Assembly (NCBI RefSeq): GCF_021735925.1
Contig: NZ_WMEA01000001.1
Location: 1,952,001-2,016,000 of the forward strand
Direction: 5' to 3'
DNA from: Loktanella sp. M215
Lineage (GTDB): Bacteria > Pseudomonadota > Alphaproteobacteria > Rhodobacterales > Rhodobacteraceae
DNA length: 64,000 nucleotides
Shown here: piece by piece, positions 41,721 to 48,819 of the stretch
Position numbering within the stretch: position 1 is the stretch's first letter
How the letters are laid out: the number at the start of each line of letters is the position of its first letter
Position numbers and translations under genes: made by a program
The notes under the pieces: model-generated
Seen by the model: only the letters and a program-made list of their open reading frames with translations
Database searches by the model: none
Told to the model about the DNA's origin: nothing

Positions 41721-41797
41721 GGTCCCGTAGCTCAACCGGATAGAGCACCTGACTTCTAATCAGGATGTTGGGGGTTCGAGTCCTCCCGGGATCGCCA
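41721..41797 (+). tRNA. tRNA-Arg (anticodon UCU)
   Basis: A 77-nt cloverleaf. Acceptor GGTCCCG pairs with CGGGATC, D-arm AGCTCAACCGGATAGAGC, anticodon stem CCTGA/TCAGG with loop CTTCTAA (anticodon TCT), T-arm GGGGGTTCGAGTCCTCC, then discriminator G and an encoded CCA. No integrase or duplicated tRNA end was seen nearby. Confidence 0.95.
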
Positions 41798-41897: not shown

Positions 41898-44639
41898 TCA
41901 GGATACTGCAGCCAAACGGCGCGCGATCACGACGGCTTCGGCTTGCGTCAGACCCGCACCCTCGCGCACCAGCGCGGAAGAAGCGTCGCCAAGGACCTGC
42001 GCCACCTCGGCCTCGTACCTCTGGAACTCGGCCTCGTCACTTGGCTCGAAGGCCGCACCGGCGCGTTCCAGAAGCGCGCGTGTCGCGCCCAGCAGGCGCG
42101 CGGCTTGGGCATGTTCGCCCCGCACGACCCCGACACCGCCCATCCCCATCAGGTACAGCAGCACGAGAATGTGGTAGCCGTTCGTCCCGGCCAAGGCATA
42201 GGTCCGGTTCAGCAGGGTCACGGCGTCTTCCCAGCGTCCCTCTCTCAGGCGAAAATGTGCGAGGTTCTGCAGGATACCGCCGGGCCACCACGTGTTGCCC
42301 AGCCGCTCTAGAATGGTCAGTGCCTCGTGATAGCAGGACTCGGCGGTCGCGACATCGCCGCCATAGCGGGCGCCTTCGCCAAGCGCGACCAGCGCGATGG
42401 CGACACCCTCGTCGTCCGCGTTCGCCTTGGCGGCCTCCAGCGAGGCCATGATCATCTCCGGCCCCGCCGGGAACTGGCCGGAGGCGGCGAGGGTGATGCC
42501 GTAGGTCGCCTTTGCACGCCCATGCTCGTGCGCCTGTCCGTGATCGGCATAGAGGGCATGCGCCATTTCGCAGCTTTCCAGCGCGCCTTCGTAATCGCCC
42601 GAAAAGATGCGGAACCAGCCGGCGACGTCGTGGATGATCGCCTTGGCGCGGCCATCGGGCTGGGTCTTGGCCTGCGTCAGCGCCGCCTCGATCCAAGTCC
42701 GGCCTTCGGAATAGAGGCCCTGCGGGATCCAGAACCACAACAGACCGCGCAGCAGATCGGCGGTCAGATCGGCGGTCGGCTGCTGTGTCGCCCAGCGCAG
42801 GGCCGCCCGCAGATTGGCCATTTCGTCATGCAGCCGGGTCACCGCCGCGCGTTGCGCCGCGCCGACCAGATCGTCCGCCAGTGCGACCACCATGTCGCGG
42901 TAATGCGCGGCGTGTCGCGCGCGCAAGGTGTCGGCATGGTGTCCGCTTTCCAGTTCGTCGGTGACGAAGCTGCGGACCGTTTCCAGCATGCGCAGGCGGG
43001 TCTCGCCGCTGACCTCGTCCTCTCGCAACAGACTGCGGTTCAGGAGGGAGACGATCAGATCGAAGGTATCGGCGCCCACATTGTGATCGGCACAGACGGC
43101 CACTGCAGAATCGACGGTGAAGCCGCCGCCGAACACGGACAGAGCGGCCAGGGCCTGCTGTTCCGGTGGGTCCAGCAGGTCATAGCTCCATGCAATCGTG
43201 TCACGCAGGGTGCGGTGCCGTCCCTCCTCGTCGCGGCGACCGCCAGCCAGCACGTCGATACTTTGTTCCAGCCGGTGGTCGATCATCTGTGGCGTCATCA
43301 GACGAATCCGCGAGGCTGCCAGTTCGATTGCCAGCGGCAGGCCGTCCAGCTGGTTGCAGATCGACAGCACGGATTGCAGGTTTTCGGCGGTCAGCGCAAA
43401 GCCCTTGCGCGCGGCAGCGGCGCGTTCAACGAACAGGCGCACGGCCGGATAGGACAGGGCGGCGTCGGCCCCGATGGACGCGTCGACCGGCGGGGACGGC
43501 AAGAGGCCCACGTCGTAAAGCTGCTCGTGCCTGATGTTCAACGGCTCCAGACTTGTCACGAGGATTTTCAGATCGGGGCAATCGGCCAGCAGGTTGCCCA
43601 CGGTGCCTGCGGCCTCGATCACGTGTTCCATGTTGTCGAGCACGAGCAGGGTGGGCCCCTGGGTCAGGGCGGCGCGCAGGCTGCGGTCGAGCGGCATGCC
43701 GGGGAATTCACGCACGCCCATCGCTTGCGCGATCGCGATCGGGACCATCGCCGGGTCCTGAATGGGGGCGAGGGGCACGAAGAACACGCCCGACGGAAAG
43801 TGATCCAGCAGTCCGTGCGCGGTTTCCAGCGCCAGCATGGTCTTGCCCGCACCGCCGGGTCCCGTCAGGGTCACCAGCCGGGTTGCGTCCTTGCTGAACA
43901 GGTGGTGCAGCACGGCCATTTCGTCATCGCGGCCGATGGGCAGGTTATTCGACGTCGGCAGATTGTTCGGACTGTTGCGGTTCGTCTTGATCGATGCCGC
44001 GATATCCTCCAGCCCGTCGATCGTCAGCATGTAAAGGTGTTCGGGATACCGCAGATCCTTGAGGTAATGCAGCCCGAGGTCTGCGGCCGACACGCCGTTC
44101 GGCAGGCCGTCCGGCCCGATGGCGGACAGCAGCGAGGCAGAGATCAGCACCTGTCCGCCGTGTCCGGCGGCGCTGATCCGGGCGGCGCGGTGCACGTCCA
44201 ACCCCCGGTAGCCCTGTTCGGGTGAATAGCGGACCTCTCCCAGATGCAGGCCCATGCGGACCCGCAACGGCATGTCGCCGGGCCAGTCCTGCCGGGCCAG
44301 CGCCTTTTGCGCCGCCACCGTCGCGGCAAGGGCCCGTCCGGGATCAGAGAAGACCGCAAAGAACGAGTCTCCGGCGGTGCTGACTTCGGTGCCGCCGTGG
44401 GTTTTCAGGACCTTGCGGATCACTGTGTTATGCAGCGTCAGTGCGGCGTCATATGCCGGCCCCAACCGCTGCAGCAGCCGCGTCGATCCCTCGATATCGG
44501 TGAACAGCAACGACAGTTCCAACTGACGTTCGGATGGTTCAGCGGTCGCACTGACCGGCGTCATGATCTGTAGTCCCGTCACGTTCAGTCCAATCCCGTC
44601 TGCCCCGCGCGGCGACTTGCTCGCCGCGCCGGAGGACAT
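41898..44639 (-). CDS. Class III cyclase-like domain, NB-ARC/AAA-type ATPase and TPR protein
   Basis: 913 residues. The N-terminal class III nucleotide cyclase domain (~40-210) keeps LFTDIEGSTRLL and STAGDSFFAVF (metal-binding aspartates) and RVRMGLHLGEV. The middle ATPase (~235-560) has P-loop LTGPGGAGKTMLA and LLVLDNMEHV (Walker B), as in LuxR/AfsR-like regulators. The C-terminal ~330 residues are TPR-like helices. There is no DNA-binding domain. It begins 20 bp after the stop of the 64-residue peptide gene on the same strand, so the two are probably co-transcribed. It may sense a ligand or peptide and make cyclic AMP; that is inference. Confidence 0.82.
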   Translation of the reverse strand: MSSGAASKSPRGADGIGLNVTGLQIMTPVSATAEPSERQLELSLLFTDIEGSTRLLQRLGPAYDAALTLHNTVIRKVLKTHGGTEVSTAGDSFFAVFSDPGRALAATVAAQKALARQDWPGDMPLRVRMGLHLGEVRYSPEQGYRGLDVHRAARISAAGHGGQVLISASLLSAIGPDGLPNGVSAADLGLHYLKDLRYPEHLYMLTIDGLEDIAASIKTNRNSPNNLPTSNNLPIGRDDEMAVLHHLFSKDATRLVTLTGPGGAGKTMLALETAHGLLDHFPSGVFFVPLAPIQDPAMVPIAIAQAMGVREFPGMPLDRSLRAALTQGPTLLVLDNMEHVIEAAGTVGNLLADCPDLKILVTSLEPLNIRHEQLYDVGLLPSPPVDASIGADAALSYPAVRLFVERAAAARKGFALTAENLQSVLSICNQLDGLPLAIELAASRIRLMTPQMIDHRLEQSIDVLAGGRRDEEGRHRTLRDTIAWSYDLLDPPEQQALAALSVFGGGFTVDSAVAVCADHNVGADTFDLIVSLLNRSLLREDEVSGETRLRMLETVRSFVTDELESGHHADTLRARHAAHYRDMVVALADDLVGAAQRAAVTRLHDEMANLRAALRWATQQPTADLTADLLRGLLWFWIPQGLYSEGRTWIEAALTQAKTQPDGRAKAIIHDVAGWFRIFSGDYEGALESCEMAHALYADHGQAHEHGRAKATYGITLAASGQFPAGPEMIMASLEAAKANADDEGVAIALVALGEGARYGGDVATAESCYHEALTILERLGNTWWPGGILQNLAHFRLREGRWEDAVTLLNRTYALAGTNGYHILVLLYLMGMGGVGVVRGEHAQAARLLGATRALLERAGAAFEPSDEAEFQRYEAEVAQVLGDASSALVREGAGLTQAEAVVIARRLAAVS

Positions 44640-44659
44640 CTTGCAAGCGGCGGTGCTGC

Positions 44660-44854
44660 CTAGAAAAAGCCGCCTTCGCTCGACGGCTTCAGGGGATGCT
44701 TCGACCCCAGCAGGTCGCGCGCCTTGATCAGTGCCTTGACCTCGTCATCCGACAATTCGGAATTCAGGGCCCGGTGGTGCTCCTCTGTCATCTCGCTCGT
44801 GTCCAGAACGCCGGCTTCCTGCAATTTCGTGACGTTCGATTTTTCTTCGGACAT
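44660..44854 (-). CDS. 64-residue acidic peptide, candidate precursor, C-terminus GGFF
   Basis: The start at 44854 is set by AAGGGAG 7 bp upstream; the ATG at 44860 is too close to it. The N-terminal ~50 residues are acidic and helical (VTKLQEAGVLDTSEM, LSDDEVKALIKARDLLG), like a leader. The last ~14 are Lys/Pro/Ser-rich and end SSEGGFF. There is no signal peptide and no cysteine. It lies upstream of the cyclase/ATPase gene and divergent from the diiron oxidase and S41 peptidase. I do not recognise a named family. A ribosomally made precursor or a small regulatory protein are both possible. Confidence 0.65.
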   Translation of the reverse strand: MSEEKSNVTKLQEAGVLDTSEMTEEHHRALNSELSDDEVKALIKARDLLGSKHPLKPSSEGGFF

Positions 44855-44991
44855 GCTCATGCTCCCTTTGAAATCAATGTGATTGGAAAACGGATCAGCA
44901 AAGACTTTGTAAAACAACCGCTTGATGCCTCGGTGACAAGGCCGGTCGGTACAGGCCGGTCGCATGCGGCCAACGCAATATCGCTGCGTCA

Positions 44992-45013
44992 AAGATTAAC
45001 ATACATTAATCTT
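44992..45013. promoter_or_regulatory. Palindromic operator candidate in the divergent region
   Basis: AAGATTAA, 6-nt spacer CATACA, TTAATCTT: 8-bp perfect arms in an unusually AT-rich stretch, 38 bp before the diiron oxidase start and 138 bp from the peptide start. A transcription-factor site controlling the divergent units is likely; no candidate regulator with a DNA-binding domain is adjacent. Confidence 0.5.
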
Positions 45014-45050
45014 CCAAAAATGTGTATATATTCAAAAGGGGAGTGAGACG

Positions 45051-45731
45051 ATGGATGGAACCACCCGACCGGCCAGCGTGCAGATCCGCACCAAGCTCGA
45101 GATGTTCCGGACCGGACTGGGACAATCCTTTGCCGAGGTCTGGGCCCGCGACGATCTGAACGTGGCCTATCCGGCCTTTCTGGGCATGGTCTACCAGATC
45201 ATCCGTGCCAGCGTCCCCCTGATGGAAGCTGCCCGCTTGGAGGCGGAACGGCGCAGCGGCGCGGATGCCATCTGCGGACCGCTGGCCGCCTATTTCGCCA
45301 AGCATATCCCCGAAGAGCGGCACCACGACGTCTGGACGCTGGAGGATCTTGGCGCGATCGGCCAGGATACCGATGCGATCGCCCGGGCGATGCCGAAGGC
45401 GGACGTGGCCCAGATGGTCGGCGCGCAGTATTACTGGATCCATCACCACCATCCGGTCGCCTTGCTGGGCTATATTTCCGTTCTCGAAGGGCAGCCGCCG
45501 TCCGTTGCACATATCGACCGGGTGCAGGCGCGCAGCGGTCTGCCAGACGCCGCGTTCCGCACCTATCGCTATCACGCGGGTGTCGATCCCCATCACAAGG
45601 ACGATCTGGACGCGCTGCTGGACAGCCTGCCGCTGACCCAGCGCGAGATTGGCTGGATCGGCGTTTCTGCCATCCAGACCCTGCAAAGCTATAAAATCTG
45701 CGTGGACAGGCTGCTCGACGATCTGGATTGA
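45051..45731 (+). CDS. Haem-oxygenase-like diiron oxidase (iron-containing redox enzyme family)
   Basis: 226 residues, all-helical. Putative diiron ligands are in HIPEERHHDVWTLEDLG (E88/E89, H91/H92, D93), ALLGYISVLEG (E146) and YRYHAGVDPHHKDDLDALL (H175, D179, H181/H182), the pattern of HDO enzymes related to UndA, BesC and SznF and to TenA/PqqC folds. Such enzymes use O2 in natural-product chemistry. AGGGGAG precedes the start. It lies 13 bp before the S41 peptidase gene and divergent from the 64-residue peptide gene. Substrate unknown; the peptide's C-terminus is one inferred possibility. Confidence 0.78.
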   Translation: MDGTTRPASVQIRTKLEMFRTGLGQSFAEVWARDDLNVAYPAFLGMVYQIIRASVPLMEAARLEAERRSGADAICGPLAAYFAKHIPEERHHDVWTLEDLGAIGQDTDAIARAMPKADVAQMVGAQYYWIHHHHPVALLGYISVLEGQPPSVAHIDRVQARSGLPDAAFRTYRYHAGVDPHHKDDLDALLDSLPLTQREIGWIGVSAIQTLQSYKICVDRLLDDLD

Positions 45732-45744
45732 ACGGAGGCGCATC

Positions 45745-47880
45745 ATGTACGAGCGACAGGACCTCGACCTTGCGGCACTCGATGCGGCGCTGGTCTCGCT
45801 CGGGCAGATCCTGACCGTCGAAGAGGCCGAGGCGATGGCGGCCACGATGACACCGGACGAGCGTCTGCAAACGATAGATCAGGCCATCCGCGTGATTGCG
45901 GACCTCTATGTCCATCTGCCGATGAAGCGGCCCCGTTACGCGGTCGATCCTGTCGCCACGTTGCGCCTGCTGCGCCGGGAATCGCCGGTCCTGCCCGACG
46001 ACATCTTTCAAAGCCGCCTGATCGCCATCCTGGATTCGCTGCGGGACGTGCATCTGGCCTATACGCCGCCTGCGCCCTACGACGCGCTGGTGGCGTTCCT
46101 GCCGTTCCTGATGGAAAGGACGGGCAGGTCCCTTGACCCTGCGGCCCGATTTTACGTCACGCGGCTGGTCGCAGAATTTGCCCACCCCACGTTTCGTCCC
46201 GGGGTCGAGATCATCAGCTGGGACGGCACACCCATTCAGCGGGCCTTGGGGCAGATGGCCGACGTCGAGGGTGGCAACAACCACTACTCCCGTGCGGCAC
46301 TGGCGCTGCAGTTCATGACCGTGCGCTGGCTGGGGTCGAACCGCCTGCCGGATGCCCGCTGGGTGGCGGTGGGATACCGGGGCGAAGATGGCAGGGCCTA
46401 CGAGATACGCATGCCGTGGCGTGTCCTGAACATCGACGCCGACGCCGGTTTCATGTTCGGGTCGCAGGCGGTGTGGATGCTGGAAGACATGGCCGCAAAG
46501 GTCGAAGATGAGGCACCTGTCGTCTTGCGCCGGGCGCCGGGAATCAGAAGCGTCTCCCTGCGTTCTCAGGTCGAGACGAAAACACGGCGGCGGTTGTTCA
46601 GGACAGGCGTGACGCGGGACACCGACCTTATCTATGCCGAAGACGCACCCGCCCGACGCGAAAACCGGCAGAAACTGGGTCGCGCCATCGCGGAGGGCAC
46701 GAAAGGCGCAGACCTTTTGGCGATTGCGCCGGATCTGACCTCGACCCTGCCGCGCCATTTTGAGGCCGAGATCATCGCAAGCGACGACGGGCGGTCCTAT
46801 GGCTATATCGGCATCCGGTCGTTCGAGCATCAGGACTGGCTTGAATTCGCGGCAGAGTTCCGGCGGCTGCTGGCCCTGATGCCGGCAAGCGGGCTTGCCA
46901 TCGACGTGCGCGGAAACCCCGGAGGGGTCATTCAGTGCGCAGAGGGCATCCTGCAGTTCATCAGCCCCTGCCGCATTCAGCCACTGAAGTTCCAATGTCT
47001 GGGCACCGAGATTTCGCGGCTGCTGGCCGATCCGGCGGGCGGCGGCGTTGCAGCCCCGATCGAGGAGGTTGTAACGGCGGAAGACGGCTGGGTCCGGGCG
47101 GTCGATATCGCCATGGCCACCGGTGCGATCTATTCCCACAGCATCGCGCTCAGCGATGCCGATCACACCAATGTCTTCGGTCAGGAATACTATGGCCCTT
47201 GCGCCGTCGTCATCGATGCGACCAGTTTCAGCTCTGCCGAGATGTTCGCGGCCGGGTTTCAGGATCACGGTATCGGTCCGGTGATCGGCGCGGATCCGAC
47301 GACGGGCGGTGCAGGCGCGAATTGCTGGACCTTCGACCAGTTGACCGGGCTCGGTCCGGCCGCGGACGCGCTTTTGGGAATCCTGCCACTGCCCAGCGGG
47401 GCGCGAATCCGTTTTTCCGCGCGGCGCTGCGTGCGGATCGGTCCCAGCGACGGCGTCCCGCTGGAGGAACTGGGCGTCTCTGCCGATCTGATCCATGATC
47501 CGACGCCGCGGGATCTGCTGGACAATAACGCCGACCTGAAGGCGATGATCTGCACCACGCTCGCCGGTCTTCAGGCCACATCGCTCGACGTGACAGCGCA
47601 GGCCGACGCGCAGGGCCTGCACCTTTGCATTTCAGGTGCGCCGATTGACCGGGTGGATGTGATCATCGATGGCCGGATCCTCGCCAGCCTCGACTATGCG
47701 GCGGCGCCGCTGTCTGTGACCCTGGCGCTGCCGTCCGCGCCGTCGGCCGGCCCCGTCGCAATGCGCGTCGAGGCCTATCGCCGGGGCCATGTCGTGGCCA
47801 ATCACTGTGCCCTGCTGCGAAGGCCGCCAGCCAGCCCGTGCGAGTCGGAAGTGTCCGGGGCTCAGGCCCAGAACGCGTGA
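45745..47880 (+). CDS. S41 family peptidase without signal peptide
   Basis: 711 residues from the ATG at 45745, with GGAGG just upstream. The S41 core is in the second half: SGLAIDVRGNPGGVIQCAEGIL (substrate-binding strand), VVIDATSFSSAEMFAAGFQDHG with the nucleophile at Ser496/497, and GADPTTGGAGAN. The N-terminal ~300 residues are helical and poorly conserved. The C-terminal ~120 residues form a beta-rich domain. No export signal, so a cytoplasmic protease, unlike most Ctp enzymes. Co-transcribed with the diiron oxidase. Confidence 0.8.
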   Translation: MYERQDLDLAALDAALVSLGQILTVEEAEAMAATMTPDERLQTIDQAIRVIADLYVHLPMKRPRYAVDPVATLRLLRRESPVLPDDIFQSRLIAILDSLRDVHLAYTPPAPYDALVAFLPFLMERTGRSLDPAARFYVTRLVAEFAHPTFRPGVEIISWDGTPIQRALGQMADVEGGNNHYSRAALALQFMTVRWLGSNRLPDARWVAVGYRGEDGRAYEIRMPWRVLNIDADAGFMFGSQAVWMLEDMAAKVEDEAPVVLRRAPGIRSVSLRSQVETKTRRRLFRTGVTRDTDLIYAEDAPARRENRQKLGRAIAEGTKGADLLAIAPDLTSTLPRHFEAEIIASDDGRSYGYIGIRSFEHQDWLEFAAEFRRLLALMPASGLAIDVRGNPGGVIQCAEGILQFISPCRIQPLKFQCLGTEISRLLADPAGGGVAAPIEEVVTAEDGWVRAVDIAMATGAIYSHSIALSDADHTNVFGQEYYGPCAVVIDATSFSSAEMFAAGFQDHGIGPVIGADPTTGGAGANCWTFDQLTGLGPAADALLGILPLPSGARIRFSARRCVRIGPSDGVPLEELGVSADLIHDPTPRDLLDNNADLKAMICTTLAGLQATSLDVTAQADAQGLHLCISGAPIDRVDVIIDGRILASLDYAAAPLSVTLALPSAPSAGPVAMRVEAYRRGHVVANHCALLRRPPASPCESEVSGAQAQNA

Positions 47881-48414
47881 CCCGGACCGTCTGACTGAGC
47901 GCCAGATGTCTGAGTGACCGCCGCCGCGGGACGGTCGAATGGCGTCGCGTCTTGCTCACGCGGCCGCCGTCGCACACACAAGACGGCATCGCCCGTTAGA
48001 GCAATCATCGCAATGGCTCAGGCCATCATCGGCGAGCCTTTCGGAGACGCAAGTGAGGTTGATGAAGCCTCAGGTGTTATCCCAGAAATTCCCTTCCATC
48101 CGCAGCGTCCCAATCGAAAGGTCTGCCAATGAAACCACCTCTCGGGATCAGGCTGGCAAATTGCATGGAGGGGGGAACCCGTGGGTGTGGGATGCGCTGC
48201 AGAACGATGAGACGAGCCCTTTCCGACTCCCGGCGCAAACTGACACCTGGGCGCGACGACGACAGTACTGCCGGACCGCATGTATCGCAGGGACATCAGA
48301 TGCGGCGGGTCGCCGGCTTATCGCTCGGACGATCTGATGGCGTGGCGCGTCGTACAGGGTTTACATTGGACCGCTCCGGTAGCGATGATGGCCGCACCCC
48401 ATCAGGACATCACC
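47881..48414. other. Gene-free region
   Basis: About 530 bp between the S41 peptidase and the cupin gene. Open frames here are short and unlike known proteins; no RNA gene or strong terminator was recognised. Confidence 0.4.
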
Positions 48415-48819
48415 ATGAAGATCACTGCCCGCGCCGACCTTCCCGTCAAGCCTGCCAACAGCGCCTGGTTCACCGGCGATGTCATGATGAGTCCGCTGTT
48501 TCACGACGATGCACCGTCCCGTGTGGCCGGGGCAGAGGTGACCTTTCAGCCCGGCGCCCGCACCAACTGGCACACCCACCCACTGGGCCAGATCCTGATC
48601 GTCACGCAAGGCGAGGGGCGGGTGCAGCGGGAGGGTGGTCCGGTCATGGCGATCAGCGCGGGCGACGTCATCCGCTTTGCCCCCGACGAGCGGCACTGGC
48701 ACGGCGCGGCACCCGACACTAGCATGAGCCATATCGCGATCCACGAAGCGGTGGACGGCAGCGCCGTGACATGGGCTGAGCCGGTCACCGATGCGGACTA
48801 CGCAGGTGAGAGTGGGTGA
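48415..48819 (+). CDS. Cupin domain protein
   Basis: 134 residues from MKITARADLPVK; the longer upstream frame is rejected. The cupin motif 1 is PGARTNWHTHPLGQILIVTQGEGRV (two His), and motif 2 is ISAGDVIRFAPDERHWHGAAP. One metal-binding cupin fold, of the small family related to carboxymuconolactone-decarboxylase-linked cupins. Substrate unknown. AGGA lies about 10 bp upstream. Confidence 0.8.
   Translation: MKITARADLPVKPANSAWFTGDVMMSPLFHDDAPSRVAGAEVTFQPGARTNWHTHPLGQILIVTQGEGRVQREGGPVMAISAGDVIRFAPDERHWHGAAPDTSMSHIAIHEAVDGSAVTWAEPVTDADYAGESG

Follow-up and report, generated by a model that had tools for sequence, protein, structure and literature searches.

A haem-oxygenase-like oxidase gene kept beside a small leader-type peptide gene: a candidate RiPP-type cluster with its own S41 peptidase in Loktanella sp. 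M215

Introduction

Haem-oxygenase-like dimetal oxidases (HDOs) are known mainly from small-molecule chemistry. In the available part of PMC13108848 the substrates of the HDOs covered are small molecules or the enzymes themselves, and the modification of a ribosomal peptide is mentioned once, with a citation of the VarO paper. The same part states that UndA decarboxylates a fatty acid and that in five HDOs of known structure the substrates bind Fe1. In the literature searched, VarO of the thiovarsolin pathway is the one HDO for which an effect on RiPP biosynthesis has been reported. When varO was deleted, only the two heavier thiovarsolins remained, which the authors attributed to the loss of a dehydrogenation (PMC6511847, available part). 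Furthermore, TfuA-YcaO clusters of Sinorhizobium contain a haem-oxygenase-like gene (PMC8120280), and the available part of that paper does not describe a peptide-HDO pair outside YcaO clusters. We found no paper beyond these two on a peptide-HDO unit in general or without YcaO, in a search that left subscription journals mostly uncovered.

Here we describe a locus in Loktanella sp. M215 in which an HDO gene lies next to a gene for a small peptide. An initial annotation, made from the sequence alone, knew of no described system with the four parts of this locus; in the parts of both papers available, VarO (PMC6511847) and the Sinorhizobium clusters (PMC8120280) are instead precedents for an HDO in a RiPP cluster.

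Organization and origin of the locus

The window is the whole stretch of DNA that was analysed, 64,000 nucleotides of contig NZ_WMEA01000001.1. Its positions 41898-47880 hold two divergent gene pairs, peptide and cyclase on the minus strand and HDO and S41 peptidase on the plus strand:

41721..41797, plus strand: tRNA-Arg(tct), 100 bp before the cluster start
41898..44639, minus strand: gene of the cyclase/STAND/TPR protein, 913 aa
44660..44854, minus strand: gene of the precursor-like peptide, 64 aa
44855..45050, no strand: divergent intergenic region common to both operons, 196 bp, 46% GC
45051..45731, plus strand: gene of the haem-oxygenase-like dimetal oxidase (HDO), 226 aa
45745..47880, plus strand: gene of the S41 (CPAF/CtpA-like) serine peptidase, 711 aa

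The four genes, their places, the gaps of 20 bp (peptide to cyclase) and 13 bp (HDO to S41) and the common upstream region, all part of the initial annotation, were borne out by an ORF check. Of two in-frame ATGs, the second, which has GGGAG upstream, is the start of the peptide gene; a start at 44860 would give 66 aa. The GC content of the intergenic region compares with 64.6% for the whole window, and a promoter scan of positions 44855-45050 gave no sigma-70 consensus site. No YcaO, TfuA, radical SAM or transporter gene was found in the cluster, and Pfam and NCBIfam profile searches assigned its four proteins to families other than YcaO and TfuA.

The interval between the tRNA and cupin genes had no match listed in any of eight congeners, when 33 of up to 397 candidate stretches were scored per genome. 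Both flanks were matched in six of these genomes and the right flank alone in two. The cluster is an accessory unit and was probably acquired. The adjoining cupin protein (48280-48819) matched the NCBIfam model for (R)-mandelonitrile lyase with 174.8 bits (cut-off 140), and the cupin DNA was matched in six of the eight congeners.

The HDO protein

The window HDO matched Pfam Haem_oxygenas_2 with 44.2 bits and its modelled structure has the haem-oxygenase-like fold. The fold by itself is no proof of an HDO, since in the structure list for this model haem oxygenases score better than CADD and HrmI. Residues H85, E88, E89, H92, E146, H175, D179 and H182 are invariant; E88/E89, H92, E146, H175, D179 and H182 are kept in 34 sequences and have counterparts in the 3dde sequence. 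The superfamily pattern of three His and three carboxylate ligands is therefore present, with E88 or E89 as predicted ligand.

At E 1e-3 or better the protein had 1,828 matches, of which the subfamily makes up some part, and a viral-contig scan gave no relatives. A quick tree, in which 48 of 145 inner branches were left open, placed the window clade apart from the YcaO-linked clade, both of them starred. On this tree the S41-linked HDOs fell into more than one group; they needed 4 changes, and 100 of 500 shuffles gave a number as low. Another, commoner HDO family gave weak matches in at least 76 of 369 Pseudomonadota genomes (L140, L141, L142, L092). Its gene in L092 lies between genes annotated as AMP-binding and SDR, and by eye L140-L142 are similar.

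The peptide and its conserved C-terminus

The peptide consists of a putative aroma-sacti-type leader (about residues 7-46) and a short conserved C-terminal part ending KHPLKPSSEGGFF. Its score against NCBIfam NF045560 (aroma-sacti cluster domain) was 20.4 bits, under the cut-off of 30. This model was matched at E 0.5 or better by 16 of the 19 HDO-linked peptides scanned, and the cut-off was reached by three: P0172, which is 83% identical to the window peptide (30.3 bits), L138 (33.2) and L172 (30.7). The other 16, the window peptide among them, missed it. With regard to sactipeptides, the window peptide is devoid of Cys and there is no radical SAM gene among the four genes. A search of 5.8 billion proteins returned five homologues of 66-98% identity, with C-termini GGFF in four and DGFF in one; the 98% homologue (P0170) is listed without a source and may share its cluster with the window's own protein. 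A plasmid search gave no relatives of the peptide.

The initial annotation had proposed to look for a variable core. In the alignment the C-terminus turned out to be conserved instead and not hypervariable. In all 28 unique aroma-sacti-like peptides the last residue is F (10), L (12), I (4) or V (2), an ending that is newly described here, and all 16 unique gammaproteobacterial ones end in G-[IVLA]-x-[ILVF]. For comparison, a wider hydrophobic set was found at the end of 98 of 253 ORFs of at least 150 aa in the same loci, some of which are not genes. The two NHLP-type peptides (L181 and L182) have a C-terminal Thr, outside this pattern, and were excluded from the count of 28; their matches to NH_RiPP_Os17 were 25.0 and 27.5 bits (cut-off 40). 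The linker ahead of the C-terminus varies in length. Because a fixed end follows a loose linker, the sequences suggest that the C-terminus itself may be the recognised element.

Conservation of the peptide-HDO neighbourhood

Strong relatives of the HDO are uncommon. At E 1e-20 only the window's own was found in 385 alphaproteobacterial genomes. Within families they occurred in at least 3 of 394 genomes in that of the window (own included), at least 4 of 180 in that of G1068 and at least 17 of 177, with 19 copies, in that of G1058, all lower bounds because 7 or 16 candidates were scored per genome. On plasmids 13 records matched, the best being four Sinorhizobium fredii plasmids. We read 27 strong copies, eight alphaproteobacterial (the window included, the four S. 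fredii records counted as one) and 19 from one gammaproteobacterial family.

A small peptide ORF adjoins the HDO gene in all 27 copies, as a RiPP precursor adjoins its enzyme, although these are not 27 independent events because the HDOs and peptides of L179 and L180 are identical and L091 and L165 are close. The ORFs are 56 to 94 aa long as called, the one of L164 forming the end of a longer open frame. The window and S. fredii peptides served as seeds (S. fredii by eye); searches with the window-type HMM or the S. fredii peptide recovered 23 of the 27, the weakest at E 7e-4 (L103), and L181 and L182 were recognized by eye. As a control, two peptide HMMs were run on 27 weaker HDO loci from a phylum draw and gave no match at E 10, a result that covers only aroma-sacti-like types because the same HMMs also miss L181 and L182; three of these loci were also read over 12-19 kb.

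The eight alphaproteobacterial loci (window, S. fredii, G523, G499, G1068, G1158, G1165 and G1238) share one order, with the peptide operon divergent from the HDO gene and the cyclase/AAA-STAND gene last. The partner genes vary. YcaO and TfuA genes lie between peptide and cyclase in six loci, the window has the S41 gene, and G1068 (L138) has neither, as YcaO, TfuA and S41 were without a match in its 18.5 kb beside peptide, cyclase and HDO. Thus, of the four-gene set first proposed, peptide, HDO and cyclase are kept in all eight loci and the S41 peptidase is not. Since BLASTP gave no alignment between the S. fredii and window peptides, the only links between these two types are their synteny, an alignment and weak matches of the leader.

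In all 19 gammaproteobacterial copies the peptide ORF lies just upstream of the HDO gene on the same strand, and the two genes overlap or nearly so. Of 17 loci, 11 have a member of a papain-like peptidase family within 7 kb, 10 have one of a radical SAM family, and in 15 there is a member of a group to which a giant hybrid sensor belongs. These counts may be inflated, that of the giant-sensor group above all, because of BLASTP linkage and domain sharing. One or two members of each group were checked with HMMs (L172 for radical SAM and papain-like peptidase; L177 for radical SAM with Pfam). The radical SAM protein of L172 matched TIGR03975 (RiPP maturation C-methyltransferase) with 665 bits (cut-off 282). 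No YcaO or TfuA was found in the 17 stretches read (5.9-19.5 kb). Two of these genomes (L168, L171) each carry two tandem peptide-HDO pairs.

The cyclase/STAND/TPR protein

The 913-aa protein combines a class III cyclase-like domain, a STAND/NB-ARC-like ATPase (motifs GPGGAGKT from residue 260 and LLVLDN from residue 331) and TPR. Pfam matches to Guanylate_cyc (35.6 bits) and TPR_12 (40 bits) were over cut-off, and the NB-ARC match (21.7 bits) was under its cut-off of 23.5. This protein is likely a sensor or regulator. Plasmid searches with it matched 228 records, the four full-length best of which came from S. fredii (38% identity, 97% cover); these genes sit in a peptide-YcaO-TfuA operon beside an HDO gene. 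Six of the 228 records were read, namely the four of S. fredii and those of S. medicae (L099) and S. meliloti (L100). The latter two were rejected as related clusters, as their annotated neighbours are not RiPP genes.

The TOMM kinase/cyclase model TIGR03903 gave no match to the window protein at E 1 in a profile search. The cyclases of G523 and G499 (L103, L104) belong to another type with a SAM domain and scored 425 and 432 bits against this model (cut-off 706); that of G1158 is close to the one of G523. A defence system was rejected, the sole PADLOC match being a weak one of 19.8 bits between PycC and the cyclase domain. Elsewhere in the window genome, at about 3.335-3.339 Mb of C1 (L107 7239-11025), the one YcaO gene found in this genome lies beside another cyclase/TPR gene.

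The S41 peptidase

The 711-aa protein matched Pfam Peptidase_S41 with 58.4 bits. It has the S41 fold and catalytic residues, and H103, S496 and E574 are invariant in 20 sequences. No signal peptide was evident by eye and the enzyme is probably cytoplasmic. The S41 peptidase fold elsewhere recognises free C-termini.

This gene is the least conserved neighbour of the window HDO and was found beside an HDO gene only in the window among all loci whose DNA was read. On metagenome contigs, relatives of HDO and S41 occurred four times on contigs of equal length, with 0.30 expected and at most 2 in 600 shifts, and from these equal lengths we infer that some metagenome contigs pair the two genes. The S41 peptidase was rejected as the diagnostic gene of the cluster, because no match to HDO or peptide came up in the best 30 of 80 distant S41 loci (L008-L037), several of which lie on short contigs (3-8 kb); the remaining 50 matched over short stretches only and are outside this count.

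TOMM clusters of a congener (L105) and of two of the 30 named genome loci (L021, L025) contain relatives of the S41 peptidase. There a CPAF-like S41 gene lies directly 3' of SagCD and SagB (L105 6987-14130, L021 5216-11647, L025 4264-11587), and the precursors are NHLP- or thiocillin-like. These peptidases are possibly a TOMM-linked protease family. In eight of 49 S41 relatives (P0026, P0031-P0033, P0036, P0043, P0046, P0047), of about 1,100-1,200 aa, an amidohydrolase domain (PF07969/PF01979) is fused to the S41 domain. In Belnapia (L032 3866-12022) a TIGR03975 radical SAM gene, a TIGR03903-like cyclase gene and an S41 gene adjoin; HDO is absent.

Discussion

We consider it likely that the locus is a small RiPP-type cluster, in which a precursor is oxidised by the HDO and cleaved by the S41 peptidase under a cyclase/STAND/TPR regulator. 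The 64-residue peptide would be the precursor, with an aroma-sacti-like leader that tethers it to the enzyme and a short conserved C-terminal segment as the substrate. The dimetal site would oxidise this segment, most likely at the last residues, and to judge from the conserved ends the HDO may well act near the peptide C-terminus. The S41 peptidase could then cut the peptide for release or clearance, and the cyclase/STAND/TPR protein, encoded in the same operon as the precursor, may act as regulator or sensor. An oxidised candidate precursor with a cyclase/ATPase regulator had already been put forward in the initial annotation, and the idea is supported by the kept neighbourhood and by the RiPP families beside the peptide-HDO pair.

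A more specific and rather unlikely version of this chemistry is a RiPP class in which the HDO, as the sole constant tailoring enzyme, oxidatively decarboxylates the last residue at the free C-terminus to give an enamide. We raise it because UndA decarboxylates a fatty acid and HDO substrates bind Fe1 (PMC13108848, available part). By analogy, the C-terminal carboxylate would bind the dimetal site as the fatty acid does in UndA. The last residues F, L, I and V all have a beta-hydrogen, and a change of about -46.0 Da would be expected. The product might then be one conserved small molecule on a ribosomal scaffold, a signal or cofactor and not a variable bacteriocin, which the S41 peptidase would free in the window.

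The YcaO and TfuA genes between peptide and cyclase in six of the eight alphaproteobacterial loci could also mean that the window holds the remnant of a TfuA-YcaO thioamide cluster, with the HDO as an accessory of thioamidation and YcaO and TfuA lost, or YcaO encoded elsewhere in the genome. One YcaO was indeed found in the window genome (C1:3337951-3338910), about 1.34 Mb off and beside another cyclase gene. However, it matched the SagD model best (145 bits, cut-off 219) and the thioamidation model with 57 bits. Moreover, G1068 and the 17 gammaproteobacterial stretches are without a YcaO or TfuA match, and the window and YcaO-linked HDO clades are separate on the tree, so that a remnant seems distinctly improbable.

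We give little credence to the peptide being a small regulatory protein or a carrier for an HDO whose substrate is a free amino or fatty acid. Such a role would suit the HDOs of PMC13108848, which, one RiPP mention aside, act on small molecules or themselves in its available part, and also a C-terminus that is conserved, unlike a variable bacteriocin core. Against it stand RiPP-typical enzymes (YcaO-TfuA, TIGR03975) beside the same pair, the resemblance of the peptide leader to RiPP leader domains and the precedent of VarO. Finally, the region without a listed match in the eight congeners and the inconstant S41 gene would agree with four independent genes that happen to lie together next to a tRNA gene in an accessory region, but this is very unlikely and largely refuted for three of the four genes, as all eight alphaproteobacterial loci, from at least two families (f1 and f174, to the latter of which S. 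fredii may belong), contain peptide, cyclase and HDO in one and the same divergent arrangement.

The HDO subfamily thus accompanies small leader-type peptides in both alpha- and gammaproteobacteria while its partners are interchangeable, and the window holds a rare version with its own protease. This pairing suggests that HDO-type enzymes alter a class of ribosomal peptides that has hardly been explored. If the peptide is the substrate, peptide and oxidase would form a two-gene system open to co-expression and a route to new O2-dependent peptide chemistry.

Comparison with known systems

With UndA, CADD and HrmI the window HDO shares the fold and the His/carboxylate pattern; the substrates of these enzymes and of AetD are small molecules or the enzymes themselves, and identities in the structure list are 9-17%. 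AetD gave only a weak profile match (E 0.009). The peptide may share with the aroma-sacti domain peptides (NF045560) a leader-like N-terminal domain. By its name this model implies a sactipeptide-type context, whereas the window peptide is free of Cys and of an adjoining radical SAM gene. The TOMM clusters of L105, L021 and L025 have S41 relatives of the same family but encode a cyclodehydratase and a SagB-type dehydrogenase and no HDO. S41 mentions were found only in the reference list in the available part of PMC10885120, on leader proteases.

The other related systems are clusters with YcaO and TfuA. A haem-oxygenase-like protein, VarO, acts in the thiovarsolin pathway, as is proposed for the HDO of the window, together with VarA, the YcaO VarY and the TfuA VarT (PMC6511847, available part). 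This likeness is drawn from the published description. VarA is a repeating precursor that comes with YcaO and TfuA, neither of which the window has, and the window adds the S41 peptidase and the cyclase/STAND/TPR protein. The Sinorhizobium clusters described in the available part of PMC8120280 are probably of the same kind as the S. fredii locus (L091), whose HDO and cyclase are 41% and 38% identical to those of the window and whose divergent order is alike. Unlike the window, these clusters have YcaO and TfuA and lack S41. What the sequences add to these precedents is a peptide and an HDO that appear to form a constant core, also without YcaO.
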